Assembly: GCA_934234275.1 (NCBI GenBank)
Contig: CAKQHU010000029.1
Location: forward strand, 1 to 11,448
Length of the DNA: 11,448 nucleotides
Direction: 5' to 3'
Origin: an uncultured Phascolarctobacterium sp.
GTDB taxonomy: Bacteria; Bacillota; Negativicutes; Acidaminococcales; Acidaminococcaceae
The stretch's first letter is position 1; each line of letters starts with the position of its first letter. The position numbers were made by a program, and so were the translations under genes. Shown here in pieces: positions 1 to 10,219 of the stretch. Below the pieces are notes generated by a model that was not told the origin of the DNA, made no database searches, and was given only the letters and a program-made list of their open reading frames with translations.

Positions 1-68
1 GCTCAGTTGGCTAGAGCATGCGGTTCATACCCGCAGTGTCCGCGGTTCGAATCCGTGCGCCGCCACCA
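1..68 (+). tRNA. tRNA-Met (anticodon CAT), 5' end cut by window edge
   Basis: The cloverleaf is readable from the D arm onward. The anticodon stem TGCGG/CCGCA (19-23/31-35) encloses loop TTCATAC with anticodon CAT at 26-28. The T arm is CGCGG/CCGTG (41-45/53-57) around TTCGAAT. The acceptor 3' strand CGCCGCC (58-64) is followed by discriminator A and an encoded CCA (66-68). The first roughly nine bases (acceptor 5' strand) lie outside the window. The anticodon stem lacks the three G-C pairs of initiator tRNA, so this is more likely elongator Met than fMet. A tRNA-Ile(CAU) cannot be strictly excluded without the missing strand. Confidence 0.95.
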
Positions 69-78
69 ACTGCAATTC

Positions 79-108
79 AAGACTTCCAAGAAATTGGAAG
101 TCTTTTTT
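79..108 (+). terminator. Rho-independent terminator after tRNA-Met
   Basis: An 11-bp perfect stem (79-89 with 94-104) closes a GAAA tetraloop (90-93). The T run of the stem continues to 108. It lies 10 nt after the tRNA CCA end and probably ends the tRNA transcript. Confidence 0.88.
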
Positions 109-181
109 GTTGTCTGCAGCAGAGAAACGGAATATAAAAAATTCTGCTTCGTATCATGTAAAATTTTTTTAGTTTTAATAT

Positions 182-195
182 TTTTTACGTAAAAA
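182..195. promoter_or_regulatory. AT-rich perfect palindrome upstream of the receptor promoter
   Basis: TTTTTACGTAAAAA is a 14-bp perfect palindrome. Its centre is about 70 bp upstream of the start point predicted from the promoter at 223-251, a spacing compatible with an activator site. No regulator is identified and AT-rich palindromes do arise by chance, so this is only a candidate operator. Confidence 0.3.
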
Positions 196-222
196 TAAAT
201 TGCAACAGTTTTCATACTTTTC

Positions 223-251
223 TTGACACTGCAATCTTTAAATGATATACT
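223..251 (+). promoter_or_regulatory. Sigma-70 type promoter of the receptor operon
   Basis: A perfect -35 TTGACA (223-228) is separated by 17 bp from -10 TATACT (246-251). TG at 243-244 gives an extended -10. Transcription would begin near 258, leaving a leader of about 145 nt before the receptor start codons. The match is close to consensus, so strong basal transcription is expected unless repressed. No convincing Fur box overlaps it. Confidence 0.75.
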
Positions 252-336
252 TGTAAACAGTATTAATTCCGAAAACAAATAAAGATACAAGAAATATATA
301 TGTCTGAATAAACATATGTAAAAAGGACTGGTTTTG

Positions 337-374
337 GCTATAGCAGACTTTGCCGAATTTTAATCTGTCATAGC
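337..374 (+). promoter_or_regulatory. Leader hairpin before receptor ribosome binding site
   Basis: An 11-position stem pairs 337-347 with 364-374, with one A-C mismatch and one G-U pair, around a 16-nt loop. It ends 20 nt before the Shine-Dalgarno sequence. It has no T tail, so it is not a terminator. It could affect RNA stability or translation. I see no conserved riboswitch signature such as a cobalamin box. Confidence 0.3.
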
Positions 375-393
375 TGTGATTGGTATATATTTT

Positions 394-399
394 AAGGAG
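394..399 (+). promoter_or_regulatory. Ribosome binding site AAGGAG fixing the receptor start
   Basis: AAGGAG lies 4 nt before ATG 404 and 10 nt before ATG 410. Both ATGs are in the same frame, and that frame differs from the frame of the receptor body. The site shows that initiation belongs to the upstream frame and not to the in-body GTG at 462, which has no Shine-Dalgarno sequence. Confidence 0.8.
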
Positions 400-403
400 T
401 GGT

Positions 404-2519
404 ATGAGTATGCAGAAAAAAGAACTATCTAAGTTAGTCCTGACAACCCTGTTAACTAGCAGTGTACTGTGGGGGGGGGACGGCACTCGCTGCTGAAGAG
501 AATTTACAAGAATTTTCTTTAGACACCATGGTTGTTACCGCAACCAGAACTCAGATGTCTGTTAAGGAAACCCCTGCTACCGTAGAGGTTGTTGACAGCA
601 AAAAACTGGAGCAGACACAGGCTAAAACCTTGCATGAAGCATTAAAGGGCGCTTTGGGCGTTAATGTATTCAACGATTTCCAGGGACGCAGTAATGTCAG
701 CATCCGCGGCAGTGAATCCCGTCACGTATTGATTATGGTTGACGGCAAGCGTTTGGGCGGCGAGGCTGCTTACAACTCTGCCAATGCCTGGGACGTAGAC
801 CGTATCCGTATGGAGGATGTTGAAAGAGTCGAAATTATCCGCGGACCTGCAGGCGCAATGTATGGCAGTGACGCTATGGGCGGCGTTATCAACGTTGTTA
901 CCAAAACTCCGAATAAGACTGTTGCCAACGTGAATTATGAATACGGCTGGTACGAGGACGGCAAGGGTGCAGGCTATAAAGGCAACCTGTATCTGCAAGG
1001 CGCTGAGGGCAAATATTCCTACAAAATCAACGCCGGCCTGAATAATAACAGACCGTATTTGGATCCCAAAGGCAGCGGAGATTCCATGAACTTTTATGGT
1101 AAGCAGCAGCCGCTTTCTTTGAATGTAGGCTATAAATTCGATAATGGCAATGAATTAAGTGTAGATTTCAGCAAAATCAAAGAGGACAACCAAAAGTCTA
1201 CTACTACCAGAACAACCATGAAACCCGGTATCTGGCAGGATAAGATACAGACTATTTATAACGATAATAAGCGTACTGACTATGCTATTACTTATCAGGG
1301 CTCCGATGATAAGCAGGACTGGATGTTCCGAGCTTATAAATCAGTATTCGATAAGAACTATAAGAACCAGAATAATACCCGCATGACCATGATGGGCAAG
1401 CCCGGCAAGTGGACTCTGCAGGCTCCGAAGATTGATACCATTAAACGCACCCTGAGCGTTATTGAAGGTAAGGACACCTTCAACCTGAGCGATAAGAACA
1501 AGCTGACTGCCGGTTTTGAATATCGTAAGGATCAGAGCGAAGGCACCCGCTTAAAGAAACCGAATACTTCTTTGGCAGGCGGTAATGCTCATGCTGCTTT
1601 TGATAAGGCAGATATCAACTATCTGGCAGCATATGTTCAGGATGAATTCAGACCTGATGATAAATGGCTGATTATTCCCTCCGTACGTTTCGACCATAGT
1701 GATCAGTTCAGCAACAAGCTGACCAGCAACCTGGCTGCAACCTATAATGCTGCCGATGACGTTCGTATTAAGGCTGTAGTTGGTCAGGGCTATAAAACTC
1801 CGACTGTAAACGACTTGTACATTTTCTGGGAAATGTATGCCGCAAATCCGGGTGGTAAAGGCCAATTCTATGTTGGTAACCCTGATCTGAAACCGGAAAA
1901 ATCCTTAAGCTACGAATTATCCGTTGAAAAGGACTGGGGCGACAGATCTACCGTTCATCTGGGCGTATTCAGAAGTGAAGTTAAGGATTTGATCAGCACC
2001 TATTGGACCGGTAAGCTGACCGATGATGATCCGGATTTATATCCCGGCGTTAAAGGCGACATGATTATGGCGTACAAGAATATTCCTGAAGCAACTCTGC
2101 AGGGCGTAGAGCTGTACGGTTCTCACAGACTGGGCAAGAATATTTATCTGAATGCCGGCTACACCTTCCTGGATGCTAAAGACAAAACTGCGGGAACTCG
2201 TCTGAAGGACAGAGCTAAGCATCAGGTAACCTTCGGCGTTTCCTATCAGCCGGAAAATATTTATGCTTGGGACCTGAGCTTTGACCTTGTATCTAACATC
2301 GGCTACTACTTCAATAATGGCGATAAGAGCACCATGGGCAACTTCGTTTACGAAACCAAGGACTTCACCATTGCCAATATCATGGCTTCCAGACATCTCA
2401 ACAAGGATACCAAGATTTATCTGGGTATTGACAACATCAGCAATCACCAGAACTTTGGTCCGTATTCTGACGGCAATCTTGGTCGCTTGTACAGAGTTGG
2501 TATGGAATATAAATTCTAA
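404..2519 (+). CDS. TonB-dependent outer-membrane receptor, out of frame at a 9-G tract
   Basis: This is an outer-membrane gated porin for an iron compound, powered by TonB. The uninterrupted body runs 462-2519 (685 codons if read from GTG 462). It shows a TonB-box-like DTMVVTA just after the signal peptide, a plug domain with an IRGPAGAMYGSDAMGGVINVV block (about 837-902), an NPDLKPE motif (about 1878-1898) and a C-terminal strand ending YRVGMEYKF. The credible start, ATG 404 or 410 with AAGGAG, encodes a basic, hydrophobic signal-peptide start but is one base out of frame and stops at TGA 494-496 after 30 codons. Removing one G from the run at 471-479 joins the frames into about 702 aa (from ATG 410) with cleavage near ALAA/EEN. 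Neighbours suggest heme, but no His lies between the FRAP-like and NPNL-like boxes, so the substrate is uncertain. Alternatives are a real pseudogene or a base-calling error in the G run. Confidence 0.88.
471..479 (+). repeat. Poly-G tract (G9), candidate phase-variation switch
   Basis: Nine consecutive G residues fall within the end of the signal-peptide coding region. With nine G the frame starting at 404/410 terminates at 494-496. With eight (or eleven) it reads Trp-Gly-Gly-Thr-Ala-Leu-Ala-Ala and enters the receptor body. Homopolymer G/C runs at this position are a classic slipped-strand contingency signal in other bacteria. I infer the same here. Confidence 0.7.
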
Positions 2520-2546
2520 ACATAGCGGTAAAGTAAAAGAACAAAT

Positions 2547-2574
2547 AAAGCAGGCCCGATGGCCTGCTTTGTTT
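2547..2574 (+). terminator. Hairpin terminator or attenuator between receptor and binding protein
   Basis: A 10-bp perfect stem (2547-2556 with 2561-2570) has a CGAT loop and a short T-rich tail. It lies between the receptor stop and the next start codon 74 nt downstream. I see no clear promoter in the gap, so partial read-through into the next three genes is likely. Confidence 0.8.
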
Positions 2575-2592
2575 GCCTAACGAGGAAGTATT

Positions 2593-3555
2593 ATGCGAAA
2601 AATTTTCAGTTTCATTTTAGCCGTTCTTATGGTATGCTTATGTATAAGCGGTTGCTCACCGCTAACCGGCAATTCCGGTTCGGGCAGCGCAGTGAAAATT
2701 ACCGATGATAACCAGCGTATTGTTACTATAAAGAAGGTTCCCGAAAGAATCGTTGTTCTGTCCCCGTCTTTCCTGGAGCTGGTGGAGGCTGTCGATGGCA
2801 AGGTTGTCGGCCGCGCCAAAACACAGGTAGGCAGGGTGCCCGCTTTTGCCAAGAATGCTGCCGAGGTAGGCTTTATCTTTAATATTAACGTAGAAAAAAT
2901 TGTGGAGCTGAAGCCTGACCTGGTAATTGCTTACAAAGGCATGCACGAGCGTTATCTGCATACCTTGGAATCCAATAATATTCCTGTTGTTGTGCTGAAC
3001 TTGAAATCCTATGAGGATGTTAAGCACAGCATGCTTACCATTGGCAAAATAATGCGTAAGGATGACAAGGCGCAGAAGGTTGTGGCAAATCTCGATAAGG
3101 ATATCAATGCTACAGTAAGCAAGCTGCCTAAAAGCGAGCGCAGCGTAGCGATTCTGCACACCACCAGCATGGGCATTACTATGGAAAAGGAAACAAGTAT
3201 TGCCGGCTGCTGTGCCAAAATGCTCAAACTGCGCAACGTGGTGCAGGGAGAAACCAAGCCTGTCAGCGGACCGATGGGAGCTCAGCCTGACAAGGCTCCC
3301 TACAGCTTAGAGGATTTGCTGGAGAAAAATCCGCAGGTAATTTTTATCACCTCTATGGGTGCGCCCAAAGATAGTGAGGGCAATCCTAAGCTGGAGATTA
3401 TGAGCAATCCTGCGTGGAATTCCATTGATGCGGTAAAAAACAAACAGGTATTTTTCCTGCCGGATGATTTGTTTTTGCTCAATCCGGGTTTGGAATATCC
3501 GAAGGCAGTACGCTATATGGCAGCAAAAATGTACCCTGATGTAGTAAAGGAGTAG
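2593..3555 (+). CDS. ABC transporter substrate-binding lipoprotein (BtuF/FhuD/HutB type)
   Basis: This is a periplasmic, lipid-anchored binding protein of the class that carries heme, cobalamin or Fe-siderophores (PF01497-like). The 320-aa product has a type II signal peptide with lipobox ISGC and acylated Cys21. It then shows the family's start: a short beta region, VPERIVVLSPSFLELVEAV, and an NVEKIVELKPDLVI block. The C-terminal lobe includes NPQVIFI and the closing NPAWNSIDAVKNKQVFFLP block. The start has AGGAAG 4 nt upstream. The gene ends 4 nt before the radical SAM gene, so the two are co-transcribed. Association with a HutW-like enzyme and a TonB receptor favours heme as ligand, which is inference. 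The cognate permease and ATPase are not in the window. Confidence 0.87.
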   Translation: MRKIFSFILAVLMVCLCISGCSPLTGNSGSGSAVKITDDNQRIVTIKKVPERIVVLSPSFLELVEAVDGKVVGRAKTQVGRVPAFAKNAAEVGFIFNINVEKIVELKPDLVIAYKGMHERYLHTLESNNIPVVVLNLKSYEDVKHSMLTIGKIMRKDDKAQKVVANLDKDINATVSKLPKSERSVAILHTTSMGITMEKETSIAGCCAKMLKLRNVVQGETKPVSGPMGAQPDKAPYSLEDLLEKNPQVIFITSMGAPKDSEGNPKLEIMSNPAWNSIDAVKNKQVFFLPDDLFLLNPGLEYPKAVRYMAAKMYPDVVKE

Positions 3556-3559
3556 GCTG

Positions 3560-4972
3560 ATGACTGATTATGCAAAAAATATTCAGGCGTTTTATGAGCG
3601 CGATGATTATAAGGCTCTTGCCGGCCAGCCAGGGGCTACTGCTGTAGAAGCAAGCTTCAAGGATCTGACCTACGTTCCGCGCAAGACCAAACCGCTGCCG
3701 GGGATGATGGCCGGGACGATGCTGCAGGAGTTTGCTTTGCAGCCAGCGCAGCCTACGGCATTGTATTTGCATATTCCGTTCTGTAATTTGCGTTGCTCTT
3801 ATTGCAGCTTTTACCGCAATCCCTTTGAGGCGGAGCAGGTTGAGGAATATGTGCAGGCGCTTTTGGCGGAGCTGGATTTTCTGCAGCAGCAGGGCGTTTT
3901 TGCCAAGCAAAGACCGGAAGCGGTATTCTTTGGCGGCGGTACGCCGTCCGTGCTGAATCCTGCGCAAATCAGTGCGCTGCTGAACAAAATTCACAGTGCT
4001 GCCAGCCTGGCGGATGATTGTGAGGTAACCTTTGAAAGCAGTATCTATGATTTATCGGCGGATAAGCTCGCTGCCTGCATTGCCGGCGACGTAAACCGCT
4101 TCAGCTTCGGCGTCCAGGCCTTTGATACGCATTTGCGCCGCTCCTTAGGCAGGCTTAATACGAAGGATGAGGTAACGGCCAAGCTCGAAGAGGTGGCAGC
4201 CAAAGGCGTCAAGGTTATCATCGACCTGATTTACGGCCTGAACGGCCAGACGCAGGCCATGCTTTTGGACGATATCAGAACGGCGCTGGCCTGCGGCGTG
4301 AGCGGTATGGATTTGTACAAGCTGCAGATTATGCCAAAATCTCCCTTAGGTCAGGCGATTGCCAAAGGTAACATCAAATACGAATATAACGACAGAATGT
4401 TGGCGGAAATGTTCGTCGCTGCCGATGCGCTGCTCGCAGAGCAGGGAGCAAAGGCGCTGAGCTGCTGCCACTGGGCAATGCGCGAGGATGAACGCAGCGG
4501 TTACAATACGCTAGTTAAGAGCGGTGCCAATATCATTACCTGCGGTGCAGCCTGCGGCGGTCACATGGGAATGTATAATTATATGAAGACTATGGACCGA
4601 AGCGACTATGTAAAAAAGGCTATGTCCGGACAGTACGCTGTCATGGGCATGGGCAAGCATAACGAAAATTATCTGCTGCTCGAAAAGCTTTCCGGTCAGT
4701 GTGATTGTGGCAGGTTTGATTTTGCTTTGCTGCAGCAGTATAGCGATGCGGATTGGGAGAGCTTGTTCAAACCGCTGCTGGAGCAGTGGGAGCTTTTAGG
4801 TTTGCTTTACGTTGTGGACGGGAAGTATTATTTTACGGCGAAGGGCAAATATTACTATCGTCAGATGGACAGAGTGCTGCTGACAGCTGCGGAATGCGCG
4901 CTTTACGGCAAGCCGGGGCTGATGGAGCAGGCAGGCCAGAAGATGATGGGTATTATGAAGAATATGAAATAA
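3560..4972 (+). CDS. hutW: HutW/ChuW-like anaerobic heme-degrading radical SAM enzyme
   Basis: This is a cytosolic radical SAM protein of the HemN-related HutW/ChuW/HmuW group. Characterised members use S-adenosylmethionine to methylate and open heme without oxygen, giving a linear tetrapyrrole and iron. The 470-aa product shows the cluster motif CNLRCSYC (Cys75, Cys79, Cys82), followed by the FYRN typical of this group. The SAM-binding GGGTPS is at 125-130, and a Cys- and His-containing middle region (CCHW, CGAACGGH) follows. A HemN-C-like winged-helix end runs from about residue 400. AAGGAG overlaps the end of the preceding gene, and the flavodoxin gene starts 15 nt after the stop. The alternative, coproporphyrinogen dehydrogenase HemN, is less likely given the neighbours and the FYRN sequence. 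The symbol is assigned by family resemblance. Confidence 0.85.
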   Translation: MTDYAKNIQAFYERDDYKALAGQPGATAVEASFKDLTYVPRKTKPLPGMMAGTMLQEFALQPAQPTALYLHIPFCNLRCSYCSFYRNPFEAEQVEEYVQALLAELDFLQQQGVFAKQRPEAVFFGGGTPSVLNPAQISALLNKIHSAASLADDCEVTFESSIYDLSADKLAACIAGDVNRFSFGVQAFDTHLRRSLGRLNTKDEVTAKLEEVAAKGVKVIIDLIYGLNGQTQAMLLDDIRTALACGVSGMDLYKLQIMPKSPLGQAIAKGNIKYEYNDRMLAEMFVAADALLAEQGAKALSCCHWAMREDERSGYNTLVKSGANIITCGAACGGHMGMYNYMKTMDRSDYVKKAMSGQYAVMGMGKHNENYLLLEKLSGQCDCGRFDFALLQQYSDADWESLFKPLLEQWELLGLLYVVDGKYYFTAKGKYYYRQMDRVLLTAAECALYGKPGLMEQAGQKMMGIMKNMK

Positions 4973-4987
4973 AAGGAGTGTACTACT

Positions 4988-5518
4988 ATGCAGGACATTT
5001 TAATCGTTTATGACAGCAAAACCGGTAATACGGAAAAGGTGGCCAAGGCTTTGGCCGAGGCTGCAGGCGAGCGCTGCGTGTTGGCGCAGGTTGACGCTGC
5101 TCCGGCTGCGGATGACTTCGCTGTTGTGGTAGCAGGCTATTGGGTTGATAAGGGCGCCCCGAATGCGAAGATGAAAAAATATCTGGAAACATTGCATGGC
5201 AAAAAGGTAGTGCTGTTCCAGACATTGGGTGCAGACCCCGCGAGCGATCACGCTGTAAGCTCCCTGGTAAATGCAGGCGTGTTGATGAACAAGGATTGCA
5301 AGGTGCTGGGAACACTGTCTATCCGCGGTGCGATTGACCCGGCGCTGATTGCCATGATGCGCAAGATGCCGGCAGGCAGCCCGCACAGCCCCAGCCCTGA
5401 GAGCGAAGCCCGTTGGGCTGCGGCTGCAAGTCATCCGGATGCAGAGGACCTGGCAAAAGCCAAGAGCTTTATGCAAGGTTTTTTGGCTATGTATGACAAG
5501 TTTTTGAAGATGATGTAA
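4988..5518 (+). CDS. Flavodoxin-family protein, HmuF/BilS-like
   Basis: This 176-aa FMN-binding electron carrier is probably cytosolic. The N-terminal phosphate loop SKTGNT (residues 10-15) follows the first beta strand ILIVYD. The aromatic GYWVDKGAPN loop (50-59) and LFQTLGADP segment (77-84) lie where flavodoxins contact the flavin ring. The C-terminal extension is Ala/Pro-rich and then helical. AAGGAG sits 9 nt before the ATG. Position directly after the radical SAM gene matches Fusobacterium hmuW-hmuF, where the flavodoxin supports heme breakdown and anaerobilin reduction. I infer electron delivery to the HutW-like enzyme or reduction of its product. It could instead be a general low-potential flavodoxin, but operon position argues against that. 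Confidence 0.83.
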   Translation: MQDILIVYDSKTGNTEKVAKALAEAAGERCVLAQVDAAPAADDFAVVVAGYWVDKGAPNAKMKKYLETLHGKKVVLFQTLGADPASDHAVSSLVNAGVLMNKDCKVLGTLSIRGAIDPALIAMMRKMPAGSPHSPSPESEARWAAAASHPDAEDLAKAKSFMQGFLAMYDKFLKMM

Positions 5519-5550
5519 GAGCAGTCCTTCATACAAGAACAGTGTTTGAT

Positions 5551-5587
5551 AATGCGCAGTCGCAGTTTGGCTGCGCATTTATTATTG
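5551..5587 (+). terminator. Terminator of the heme operon
   Basis: A 9-bp stem (5551-5559 with 5571-5579) closes an 11-nt loop and is followed by TATTATT. It begins 32 nt after the flavodoxin stop codon. The T tail is interrupted, so termination may be incomplete. Confidence 0.65.
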
Positions 5588-5657
5588 TAAAAGCATTTTA
5601 GGGCAGAGAAATTTAAACGATGAACTAAGAGTGTAGAAGTATTGACAAATTTGTGTC

Positions 5658-5686
5658 TTGCGTAAAGTTCTTTCATAGTGTACAAT
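5658..5686 (+). promoter_or_regulatory. Probable promoter of the Dpp-type transporter operon
   Basis: TTGCGT (5658-5663) is 17 bp from TACAAT (5681-5686). The -10 matches at five of six bases and the -35 is weak. The predicted start near 5693 gives a leader of about 35 nt. A perfect TTGACA at 5642-5647 lies too far upstream to pair with this -10. Confidence 0.45.
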
Positions 5687-5727
5687 GAATGTAGTCATAA
5701 AATGCAATTTTGAAAGGAAGGTGCATT

Positions 5728-7394: not shown

Positions 7395-8330
7395 ATGCTT
7401 AAATATGTTGTCAACAGACTCCTCAGTTTGATTCCGGTAATTTTAGTAACCTCTTTTCTGATTTACTGGGCAATGAGTCTTACTGAGGGCGACCCCGCAA
7501 TGATGATTGCCGGCGACGGCGCTTCTAAGGAAATGATTGATCAGATCCGCCATGAGCTTGGTCTGGACCAGCCTTTCCTGCTGCAATACTTTAACTATAT
7601 GAGAGGTATGCTTGTAGGTGATATGGGCAAATCCTATGTAACCAACAAGGACGTATTCCATACCTTCTTCCAATATCTGCCGAACACCCTGTATCTGGGC
7701 GGCGCTGCTGTTATTATCGCTACTCTGGTATCCATTCCTTTGGGTATCTACACCGCTATCCACCAGAACACCTGGAAGGATACCGCAGGCATGATTTTCG
7801 CACTGTTCGGTACCTCTATGCCTAACTTCTGGCTGGGCCTGATGCTGATTATTATCTTTGCTCTGCATCTGAGATTATTCCCGACCGGCGGTAACTTCGG
7901 CTGGAAGAGCCTGGTTCTGCCTGCAGTAACCGTAGGCTTCGGTCTGGCAGCTTTGATTACCCGTATTACCCGTTCCTCCATGCTGGACGTTATGCGTCAG
8001 GATTATATGACCACCGCGCGTGCTAAAGGCTGCAGCGAGCATCGTGTAATCTATAAGCATGGTCTGAAAAACGCACTGATTCCTATTATCACTGCTATCG
8101 GTCTGCAAATGTCTTTGGTTATCACCGGCTCCGTACTGGCTGAAACCGTATTCAGCTGGCCCGGTATCGGCCGTCTGGTATACGAATCCATCACCAGACG
8201 TGATATTCCGATGGTAACAGGTTCTATTATTCTGTGTTCTATTTTGATGTGCCTGATTAACCTGGTTGTCGATTTGGTATACGCATTCTTTGATCCGCGT
8301 ATCAAGGCACAGTACAGCAAGAAGGGGTGA
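7395..8330 (+). CDS. dppB: Dpp/Opp-type ABC permease subunit (DppB-like)
   Basis: This is an inner-membrane subunit forming half of the translocation channel. The 311-aa length is usual for DppB/OppB. Hydrophobic segments fall at about 9-28, 100-122, 131-157, 172-192, 229-250 and 273-299, giving six membrane helices. The LGLDQPFLLQYF block (55-66) is typical of DppB proteins. The coupling (EAA) loop TTARAKGCSEHRVIYKHGL (206-224) contacts an ATPase, and the C terminus carries the family's DPRIK. AAGGAG lies 9 nt before the ATG. The stop is followed 5 nt later by the next start. It is expected to pair with the DppC-like subunit. Confidence 0.92.
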   Translation: MLKYVVNRLLSLIPVILVTSFLIYWAMSLTEGDPAMMIAGDGASKEMIDQIRHELGLDQPFLLQYFNYMRGMLVGDMGKSYVTNKDVFHTFFQYLPNTLYLGGAAVIIATLVSIPLGIYTAIHQNTWKDTAGMIFALFGTSMPNFWLGLMLIIIFALHLRLFPTGGNFGWKSLVLPAVTVGFGLAALITRITRSSMLDVMRQDYMTTARAKGCSEHRVIYKHGLKNALIPIITAIGLQMSLVITGSVLAETVFSWPGIGRLVYESITRRDIPMVTGSIILCSILMCLINLVVDLVYAFFDPRIKAQYSKKG

Positions 8331-8335
8331 GGAAG

Positions 8336-9208
8336 ATGGCTGCAAAGAAAAGAACTAAAAGACGCACCATGTTCCAGGAAACCTGGCATCGTCTGCTGAA
8401 AAATAAGGGCGCTGTAATCGGCATGGCCTTTCTGGCGCTGCTGTGCGTCATCGCTCTGGTAAGTCCTTTTGTTTTCGATTATGAAACCGACGTTATCGGT
8501 CAGAACCTGGCTATTAAGCTGCAGCCTCCCAGCGGGGAGCACTGGTTCGGCACCGATGAATACGGCCGTGATTTGTTTGCCCGCGTTATGTACGGCGCAC
8601 GCTATTCCATGGCTATCGGTATCGGTTCCGTAGGCTTCGGTCTGATTGTCGGTACCATTTTAGGCTCTATTGCCGGCTTCTACGGCGGCAAGGCCGATGA
8701 TATCATCATGCGCGGTATTGATATTTTCTACTCCATTCCTAACATTCTGAAGGCAGTAGTAATCGTATCTCTGCTGGGCACCAGCACCATCAACCTGATT
8801 ATTGCTCTGGCAATTTCCTGCGCCACCAACTATGCACGTATCGTGCGTGCTTCCGTTATGACGGTGCGCGATTTGGAATATGTTGAATCCTCCTATGCGA
8901 TGGGCCTGCCCACCTGGAAGATTATTCTCAGACATATCCTGCCGAACTGCCTGTCTCCGATTATCGTACAGACTACTCTGCTGATCGGTACTACCATTAT
9001 TTCCGCTTCCTCCCTGAGCTTTTTGGGTATCGGCGTACCGGCACCTGCTCCCGAATGGGGCGCGCTGCTTTCCGGCGGCAGAGGTCATATTCGTGATGCC
9101 AGCTACATTTGTGTTATTCCCGGTTTAGCTATTATGTTTACCGTATTAGCCTTGAACCTGTTGGGCGATGGCCTGCGCGATGCGCTGGATCCTAAGCTGA
9201 AGAAATAA
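8336..9208 (+). CDS. dppC: Dpp/Opp-type ABC permease subunit (DppC-like)
   Basis: This is the second inner-membrane channel subunit, 290 aa from ATG 8336. A basic N-terminus precedes the first helix (about 25-45). The OppC/DppC hallmark GTDEYGRD is at 72-79, and the coupling loop YVESSYAMGLPTWKIILRH is at 182-200. The C terminus ends DGLRDALDPKLKK. I chose ATG 8336 because AAGGGG lies 8 nt upstream. An in-frame GTG at 8327, overlapping the previous stop, would add three residues but has a poorer Shine-Dalgarno sequence. The next gene begins 12 nt after the stop. Confidence 0.92.
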   Translation: MAAKKRTKRRTMFQETWHRLLKNKGAVIGMAFLALLCVIALVSPFVFDYETDVIGQNLAIKLQPPSGEHWFGTDEYGRDLFARVMYGARYSMAIGIGSVGFGLIVGTILGSIAGFYGGKADDIIMRGIDIFYSIPNILKAVVIVSLLGTSTINLIIALAISCATNYARIVRASVMTVRDLEYVESSYAMGLPTWKIILRHILPNCLSPIIVQTTLLIGTTIISASSLSFLGIGVPAPAPEWGALLSGGRGHIRDASYICVIPGLAIMFTVLALNLLGDGLRDALDPKLKK

Positions 9209-9220
9209 GGGGGCTGCATT

Positions 9221-10219
9221 ATGGATTTAGTATTAGATATTAAGGACCTTGTGGTCCATTATGAAACAGAAGACAGCGATGTACATGCTGTCAACGGCAT
9301 TGATATCGCCATCGGCAAAAAACGTACTCTGGGCCTGGTAGGCGAAACCGGTGCGGGCAAAACCACTACCGCACTGTCTATCATGAACCTTGTTCCGGAT
9401 CCTCCGGGAGTTATCAAAAGCGGTACGATTAAGCTCGAAGGAAAAAACGTACTTGAAATGAGCGAGCGTGAGCTGGAGGAAATGCGCGGTAACGACGTGG
9501 CAATGATTTTCCAGGACCCGATGACCGCTCTGAACCCTGTTATGACCGTAGGCGAGCAGATTGCCGAAAGTCTGGAGCTGCACCAGAACCTTACTCCGGA
9601 GCAATCTCTGGAAAAGGCTAAGGATATGCTGAAGCTCGTTGGTATTGCCGAGGCAAGAGCCAATGACTATCCGCATCAGTTCTCCGGCGGTATGAAGCAG
9701 CGTGTAGTTATCGCTATCGCGCTGGCCTGCAGCCCCAAGCTGCTGATTGCCGATGAACCGACCACCGCACTGGATGTAACCATTCAGGCGCAGGTACTGG
9801 AGCTGATGAAGGACCTCATCAACAACCGCGATATGTCCATGCTGATGATTACGCACAGCCTGGGTATCGTTGCCGAGGTCTGCGACGATATGGCAGTTAT
9901 GTATGCCGGCCGTATTGTGGAGAAGGGTACTGTTGACGATGTATTCAACAGCATGCGCCATCCCTACACCGAGGGCCTGTTCAACAGCCTGCCGAACCTG
10001 AAGGAGCAGGGCGAAATGCTGGAGCCTATCAAAGGCCTGATGCCCGACCCGGCGGATTTGCCGCCCGGATGCACCTTTGCTCCGCGTTGTCCCTACGCTA
10101 CCGAAGCATGCTCTGCCTCCGTACCTGAGCTGCATTCCGTAGATGGCAGCAAAACTCATTTTGTAGCCTGCCACGCTTATTCCAGACCCGGATTTGCTTT
10201 AAGGAGGAACCAAAAATGA
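9221..10219 (+). CDS. dppD: Dpp/Opp-type ATPase subunit (DppD-like)
   Basis: This is a cytoplasmic ATP-binding subunit of 332 aa. Walker A is GETGAGKT (41-48), the Q-loop Gln is at 98 and the signature SGGMKQ is at 155-160. Walker B LLIADEP (174-180) includes catalytic Glu179, the D-loop is ALD (183-185) and His212 is present, so all catalytic elements are intact. The C-terminal oligopeptide-transporter extension begins at HPYTEGL. It carries Cys284, Cys290, Cys297 and Cys317, a pattern that binds a [4Fe-4S] cluster in some DppD homologues. A G-rich Shine-Dalgarno sequence precedes the ATG. The gene overlaps the next one by four bases (ATGA), so translation is probably coupled. It is expected to pair with the DppF-like subunit. 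Confidence 0.93.

Follow-up and report, generated by a model that had tools for sequence, protein, structure and literature searches.

Slippage at short repeats as a gamble on the expression of receptor genes is familiar above all from mucosal pathogens, Neisseria among them. The locus described here, from an uncultured Phascolarctobacterium sp., raises the question whether a run of nine G between the start codon and the body of a TonB-dependent receptor gene is a switch of this kind, a sequencing artefact or the mark of a gene in decay. The window, i.e. the whole stretch of DNA analysed, comprises 11,448 nucleotides, and all coordinates refer to it. The features at and around the receptor gene are:

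223 to 251, plus strand: promoter-like sequence TTGACA-17-TATACT with TG before the second hexamer, matching 11 of 12 consensus positions
393 to 398, plus strand: Shine-Dalgarno sequence AAGGAG, recognised by eye
404 to 496, plus strand: short frame from ATG 404 (or 410), which starts as a signal peptide, crosses the tract and stops at 494-496
462 to 2519, plus strand: body of the TonB-dependent receptor in the other frame, 685 aa, with Plug and beta-barrel Pfam domains and a structure model; GTG 462 is a mechanical start only
471 to 479, plus strand: G9 tract, the proposed switch
2547 to 2570, no strand assigned: hairpin of 10 pairs between the receptor gene and its downstream neighbour, classed by the scan as terminator-like on the minus strand
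2593 to 3555, plus strand: substrate-binding lipoprotein (Peripla_BP_2), nearest IsdE, its score of 122.2 lying below the IsdE cut-off of 298.65
3560 to 4972, plus strand: radical SAM protein nearest ChuW/HutW (anaerobic heme degradation), with 378.2 bits for TIGR04107 and thus short of the cut-off of 400
4988 to 5518, plus strand: flavodoxin nearest BilS, with 95 bits (cut-off 155); Flavodoxin_3 in Pfam

The tract is preceded by T and followed by A. From the two ATGs behind the Shine-Dalgarno sequence a frame of 30 residues leads through the nine G into the stop codon, and the receptor body stays open in another frame up to the stop codon at 2517-2519 without a second lesion; the preliminary description had stated both, and the window sequence as well as the Pfam domains bear it out. 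That description had also taken the gene for a contingency locus caught in the OFF state, and this is the reading we favour: with a probability of roughly 0.8, the G tract is a phase-variation switch of an outer-membrane TonB-dependent receptor which was sequenced out of frame. Several of the features that characterise such loci are found here, namely a long mononucleotide tract in a frame-determining position, a gene that is otherwise intact when off and, as judged by protein N-termini only, a frame-changing length polymorphism in the population.

The run of G taken alone is only mildly unusual, since it occurs once in the window and at least one such run appeared in 10 of 200 dinucleotide shuffles (mean 0.07); the longest other homopolymer found in the window is a T7 at 164-170. 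Outside the tract, GGG accounts for merely 7 of the 262 glycine codons of the nine window ORFs, and this rarity, together with two consecutive GGG codons in the signal peptide, suggests selection for the run. Considering the GGG rarity, the signal-peptide position in a whole gene and the two frame states present among relatives, the tract is more than a product of chance.

These frame states were compared among public proteins. When the body was used as query, 3545 of 7995 candidates matched, and the N-termini of the best 120 matches were examined. Signal peptide and body lie in one frame in 104 of them, which begin with MQK or MSMQK and continue without a break from the signal peptide into the body, so that the joined signal peptide expected beforehand does occur in relatives. 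The other 16 are out of frame and begin within the tract region (MYCGGGT, MYYGGGT, MGGGT, MGGT), starts which, to judge from their sequence, appear to be gene-caller products of an out-of-frame tract. Ranking by residues 1-60 instead (305 matches, best 120 taken) extended the set to 154 distinct proteins, 133 in frame and 21 out of frame; because such a ranking is biased towards the form found in the window, the proportion of 16 in 120 gives the fairer picture. Three classes of N-terminus occur among the 21 out-of-frame proteins (19, 1 and 1), hence more than one tract length exists, and from N-termini, out of which tract lengths were deduced, we infer that the G tract is what differs among these proteins. 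In three of the 133 in-frame proteins the motif is interrupted (LFGGT twice, LWGST once), and these three may be locked.

In a gap-free comparison of bodies of equal length, six of the 16 out-of-frame proteins proved identical to an in-frame protein and two more differed from one by a single residue. Homologues bearing a species name, at 94-95% identity, belong to Phascolarctobacterium succinatutens, the species to which the window is assigned on their account, in agreement with the diderm Firmicute host previously proposed. Neither a tract of fixed length nor a plain pseudogene, the two outcomes that had been named as refuting a switch, agrees with these proteins, since relatives are listed in both states and bodies are shared between the states; the OFF-state interpretation thus gains support at the protein level. 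It should be considered that the search preferred full-length bodies, so that decayed copies would escape it. Moreover, all 16 out-of-frame clusters are single-member, whereas in-frame clusters reach 4445 (P0018) and 432 members (P0115), and the out-of-frame state is therefore rare when counted by members. In a tree built from the 120 bodies, 16 changes were required to account for the 16 out-of-frame proteins, at least 12 of them forced by starred branches, compared with a mean of 15.3 for shuffled labels; this scatter would fit rapid switching as well as random error.

The protein itself carries the Pfam domains PF07715 (Plug) and PF00593 (TonB-dependent beta-barrel), both above cut-off. Its structure model (pLDDT 80.3, pTM 0.82, 28 sequences) displays 22 barrel strands, assigned manually from the DSSP line with 285-310 merged with 313-319 and two short strands of one loop omitted, and in Foldseek its nearest solved fold is the colicin I receptor Cir, followed by FepA/PirA/PfeA, BtuB, PhuR and ChuA/ShuA. 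Plug and 22-strand barrel, the hallmarks of a TonB-dependent receptor, are consequently both present.

Variation is concentrated on the outer face of this barrel. Among 145 distinct rows (identical rows removed), with sides taken from the manual strand assignment on the model, mean site entropy was 0.040 in the plug (136 sites), 0.159 on the periplasmic side of the barrel (207 sites) and 0.284 on the extracellular side (314 sites), with a Mann-Whitney p of 6e-5 from sites that are not independent. The 50 most variable sites comprised 40 extracellular, nine periplasmic and no plug positions. Five of seven longer variants examined (P0121, P0128, P0132, P0133, P0134) possess an SMGGG-type five-residue repeat in 4 to 16 copies within one loop. 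Between P0018 and P0133 no difference occurs in residues 1-100, whereas identity falls to 52-57% over residues 251-350, a pattern that recombination would give. Near-identical first 100 residues in front of a divergent barrel make the long variants look like a case of mosaic surface variation, be they alleles or paralogues.

With regard to the substrate, the best NCBIfam model of the receptor is the heme/hemoglobin receptor TIGR01785, at 224.7 bits against a cut-off of 316.85 and hence heme-like only; the vitamin B12 receptor TIGR01779 scores 185.6 bits against 599.7. An assignment from sequence and fold was tried and abandoned, heme, B12 and catecholate receptors all matching and none of the NCBIfam models shown reaching its cut-off. 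As the scores of the neighbouring genes likewise stay below their cut-offs, heme uptake by receptor and neighbours is a best guess rather than a finding. Orthologues of the receptor, in P. faecium (L001, 74% identity) and in G011 (L011, 59%), both lie behind cobalamin riboswitches (2626-2796 in L001, P. faecium L001/L003; 1119-1307 in L011), which casts doubt on heme. The neighbours of the P. faecium orthologue include, despite the cobalamin riboswitch, a substrate-binding protein, a flavodoxin and a HutW-like radical SAM gene. In front of the window's receptor (252-403) a cobalamin riboswitch was sought and found absent, at the permissive threshold as well.

In positions 1-5700 there are 13 promoter-like sites, compared with a mean of 8.1 (sd 3.1) in shuffles, and the promoter at 223-251 is for this reason to be taken as a consensus match only. 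The 5' leader contains a hairpin-forming inverted repeat, ATATATATGT/ACATATGTA, at 295-320, possibly an operator. A tRNA gene, of which the window's edge leaves only the 3' portion (1-65), lies ahead of a terminator-like hairpin at 79-104.

At the DNA level, the signal peptides of the two more distant orthologues, L001 and L011, have no G tract, and the tract is thus not forced by the protein. Among the 59 family genomes searched none belonged to the species of the window (best match to 7395-10219: 84%, G037), and the receptor was present at E <= 1e-100 only in G001 and G011. No relatives of it were found in viral contigs. Runs of nine or more G occur in 33 of the 59 genomes; an excess of tracts in split genes was not found in the family, where 3 of 41 tracts split a gene compared with 6.5% of random positions.

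A second gene of the same layout was encountered elsewhere in the Negativicutes. In G005 (L054, 1501-1509) the extended signal peptide of a trimeric autotransporter contains a G9 tract that leaves it out of frame, while the body behind the tract is intact over 2015 codons with YadA head, stalk and anchor. Among the best 120 of 2560 homologues, one of which is named Mitsuokella, 20 have the extended signal peptide, with 2, 3 or 5 glycines at the tract, and 100 have an internal start; each of the ten closest internal-start homologues is identical to an extended-form one over the 400 residues compared. An acyltransferase gene of G044 (L073) is broken in two by a C10 tract, and its pieces correspond to positions 2-143 and 143-324 of a single Pfam model. 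In-frame tracts of 9-10 C or G were also observed within acyltransferase-like genes, named by eye, of G036 (L040/L074 and L062) and G042 (L067).

In the class as a whole at least one tract was present in 238 of 300 genomes, about three dozen having at least ten (by eye), raw numbers which were not used as evidence because, by estimate, some 15 tracts would be expected in a random genome with 50% G+C. Tracts were instead classified, once each and where they lay at least 250 bases from an end of the fetched sequence, as splitting a gene if at least 80 codons were open on each side; this covered 31 of 34 tracts in G290, 22 of 44 in G279, 16 of 28 in G284 and 7 of 26 in G264, besides the 41 in the fetched family loci. 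In G290 a gene is split by 11 of 31 tracts and three tracts are in frame; for 1680 random positions drawn from these loci the corresponding shares are 5.4% and 48.5%. The split tracts of G279 amount to 7 of 22 against 13.3% of random positions. No clear excess over random positions was seen in G284 (6 of 16 against 21%) or G264 (1 of 7 against 8.3%). The excess of split genes is accordingly clear in G290 and weaker in G279, a count which sequencing error at tracts in draft genomes could inflate. Many tract genes in L100-L169 (G279, G284, G290, G264) look, by eye, like glycan genes. When both pieces were searched against Pfam for nine of the 26 split rows, three rows (L073, L130, L128) matched successive parts of a single model; L139 gave different domains, L147 a match on one side only, and L117, L101, L153 and L158 no match.

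Three other explanations of the receptor gene's frame have to be weighed against a switch. If the homopolymer had been misread or misassembled, in the window and in the other out-of-frame entries alike, the gene would simply be on. Homopolymers are error-prone, and the single-member clusters and the tree scatter, as random as shuffled labels, would follow from error as well; errors should, however, lengthen and shorten the tract, yet 19 of 21 out-of-frame proteins fall into one class, such forms were drawn from several source collections (ena, lgn, ncbi) and five of the 16 occur on at least two contigs. Furthermore, the layout recurs in the autotransporter, where an out-of-frame form in 100 of the best 120 homologues is too much for error, so that we consider this explanation improbable. 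That a frameshifted pseudogene is on its way to loss is highly improbable: the gene is out of frame as sequenced and the missing cobalamin riboswitch of both orthologues indicates altered regulation, but 685 codons have remained free of a second lesion, identical bodies occur in frame, and variation clusters at surface loops rather than being evenly spread.

The third explanation can be combined with phase variation. Since polymerase slippage on long homopolymers is generally established, ribosomal or transcriptional slippage on the tract might yield some receptor from the out-of-frame gene and turn the switch into a leaky dial. An obvious helper structure is lacking, as the RNA fold of 258-500 was no more stable than shuffles (z 0.56), and recoding of this kind seems rather unlikely. 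Altogether, both frame states, identical bodies, GGG rarity, tract-free orthologues, surface variability and the autotransporter parallel argue for phase variation, which is weakened by the single-member out-of-frame clusters, a tree scatter equal to that of shuffled labels and the lack of a family-wide excess of split genes.

In a phase-variable receptor gene, slipped-strand mispairing at replication would reversibly add or remove a G. One class of tract length would join the signal peptide to plug and barrel and allow the receptor to be exported; with the remaining classes translation would end almost at once and the cell would be left without receptor. The near-consensus promoter would be compatible with expression being set by the tract. 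The likely payoff would be a mixed population, in which some cells import a porphyrin-type nutrient (heme or corrinoid) and receptor-less cells present no surface target to phages, bacteriocins or antibodies, an evasion with which the variable extracellular loops fit. About evenly balanced, in our view, is the wider proposition that diderm Firmicutes (Negativicutes) make general use of homopolymer phase variation. Its range would then run from single surface proteins with a poly-G signal peptide, such as the Phascolarctobacterium receptor and the G005 autotransporter, to genomes in which, much as in Campylobacter, glycan genes carry dozens of G/C tracts (G290, G279), and the Phascolarctobacterium receptor would be both phase-variable and, by way of hypervariable recombining loops, antigenically variable.

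If the receptor gene is such a switch, slippage-based bet hedging of outer-membrane receptors would extend to common gut commensals of a phylum other than that of Neisseria. The prediction is direct, concerns a single tract and can be checked in existing gut metagenome reads. Such switches are easily missed, as gene callers render the out-of-frame state as a receptor without signal peptide.

The preliminary description had known of no established example in diderm Firmicutes. This stands insofar as no account of phase variation by homopolymer in a Negativicute, Phascolarctobacterium included, appeared in titles or abstract openings among the literature matches listed, most subscription journals lying outside the search, and as a 2025 review of phase variation contains none of the words Firmicutes, Bacillota, Veillonella and Negativicutes (PMC11868660). 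It needs to be set in context, because phase variation as such is reported from the same lineage: in the genome set of one study a median of 11 invertons per genome was given for Firmicutes_C, mainly Negativicutes-like (PMC11892184). Unlike the window's tract, these act by site-specific DNA inversion and not by slippage, and the word homopolymer is absent from that paper's main text.

Homopolymers near 5' ends have been described as reversible inactivators in general, and homopolymer switches are reported in monoderm Firmicutes in swrA of Bacillus subtilis and inlA of Listeria (PMC2831843). As in the window, the homopolymer there is near the 5' end of the gene and one-base indels change the frame; in contrast to the poly-G of an outer-membrane receptor, those tracts are poly-A and belong to single-membrane cells. 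Campylobacter possesses contingency genes with intragenic G/C homopolymers (PMC8355987), to which the tract-rich Negativicutes genomes G290 and G279, known from sequence alone, are similar in kind, whereas the window offers one receptor gene. The closest parallels are HmbR and HpuA of Neisseria meningitidis, haemoglobin receptors that are phase-variable through poly-G (PMC3786947). Common to both are a poly-G run within the coding sequence of an outer-membrane iron/heme receptor, a frame that depends on how long the tract is, and a population in which on and off states occur side by side; in the window's receptor the tract occupies signal-peptide codons. The differences are the phylum, a commensal host and a receptor substrate that is only predicted. 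The kind of switch is therefore already known, and what appears to be new, our searches having found none in print, is the lineage, with homopolymer switching now proposed for the Negativicutes.
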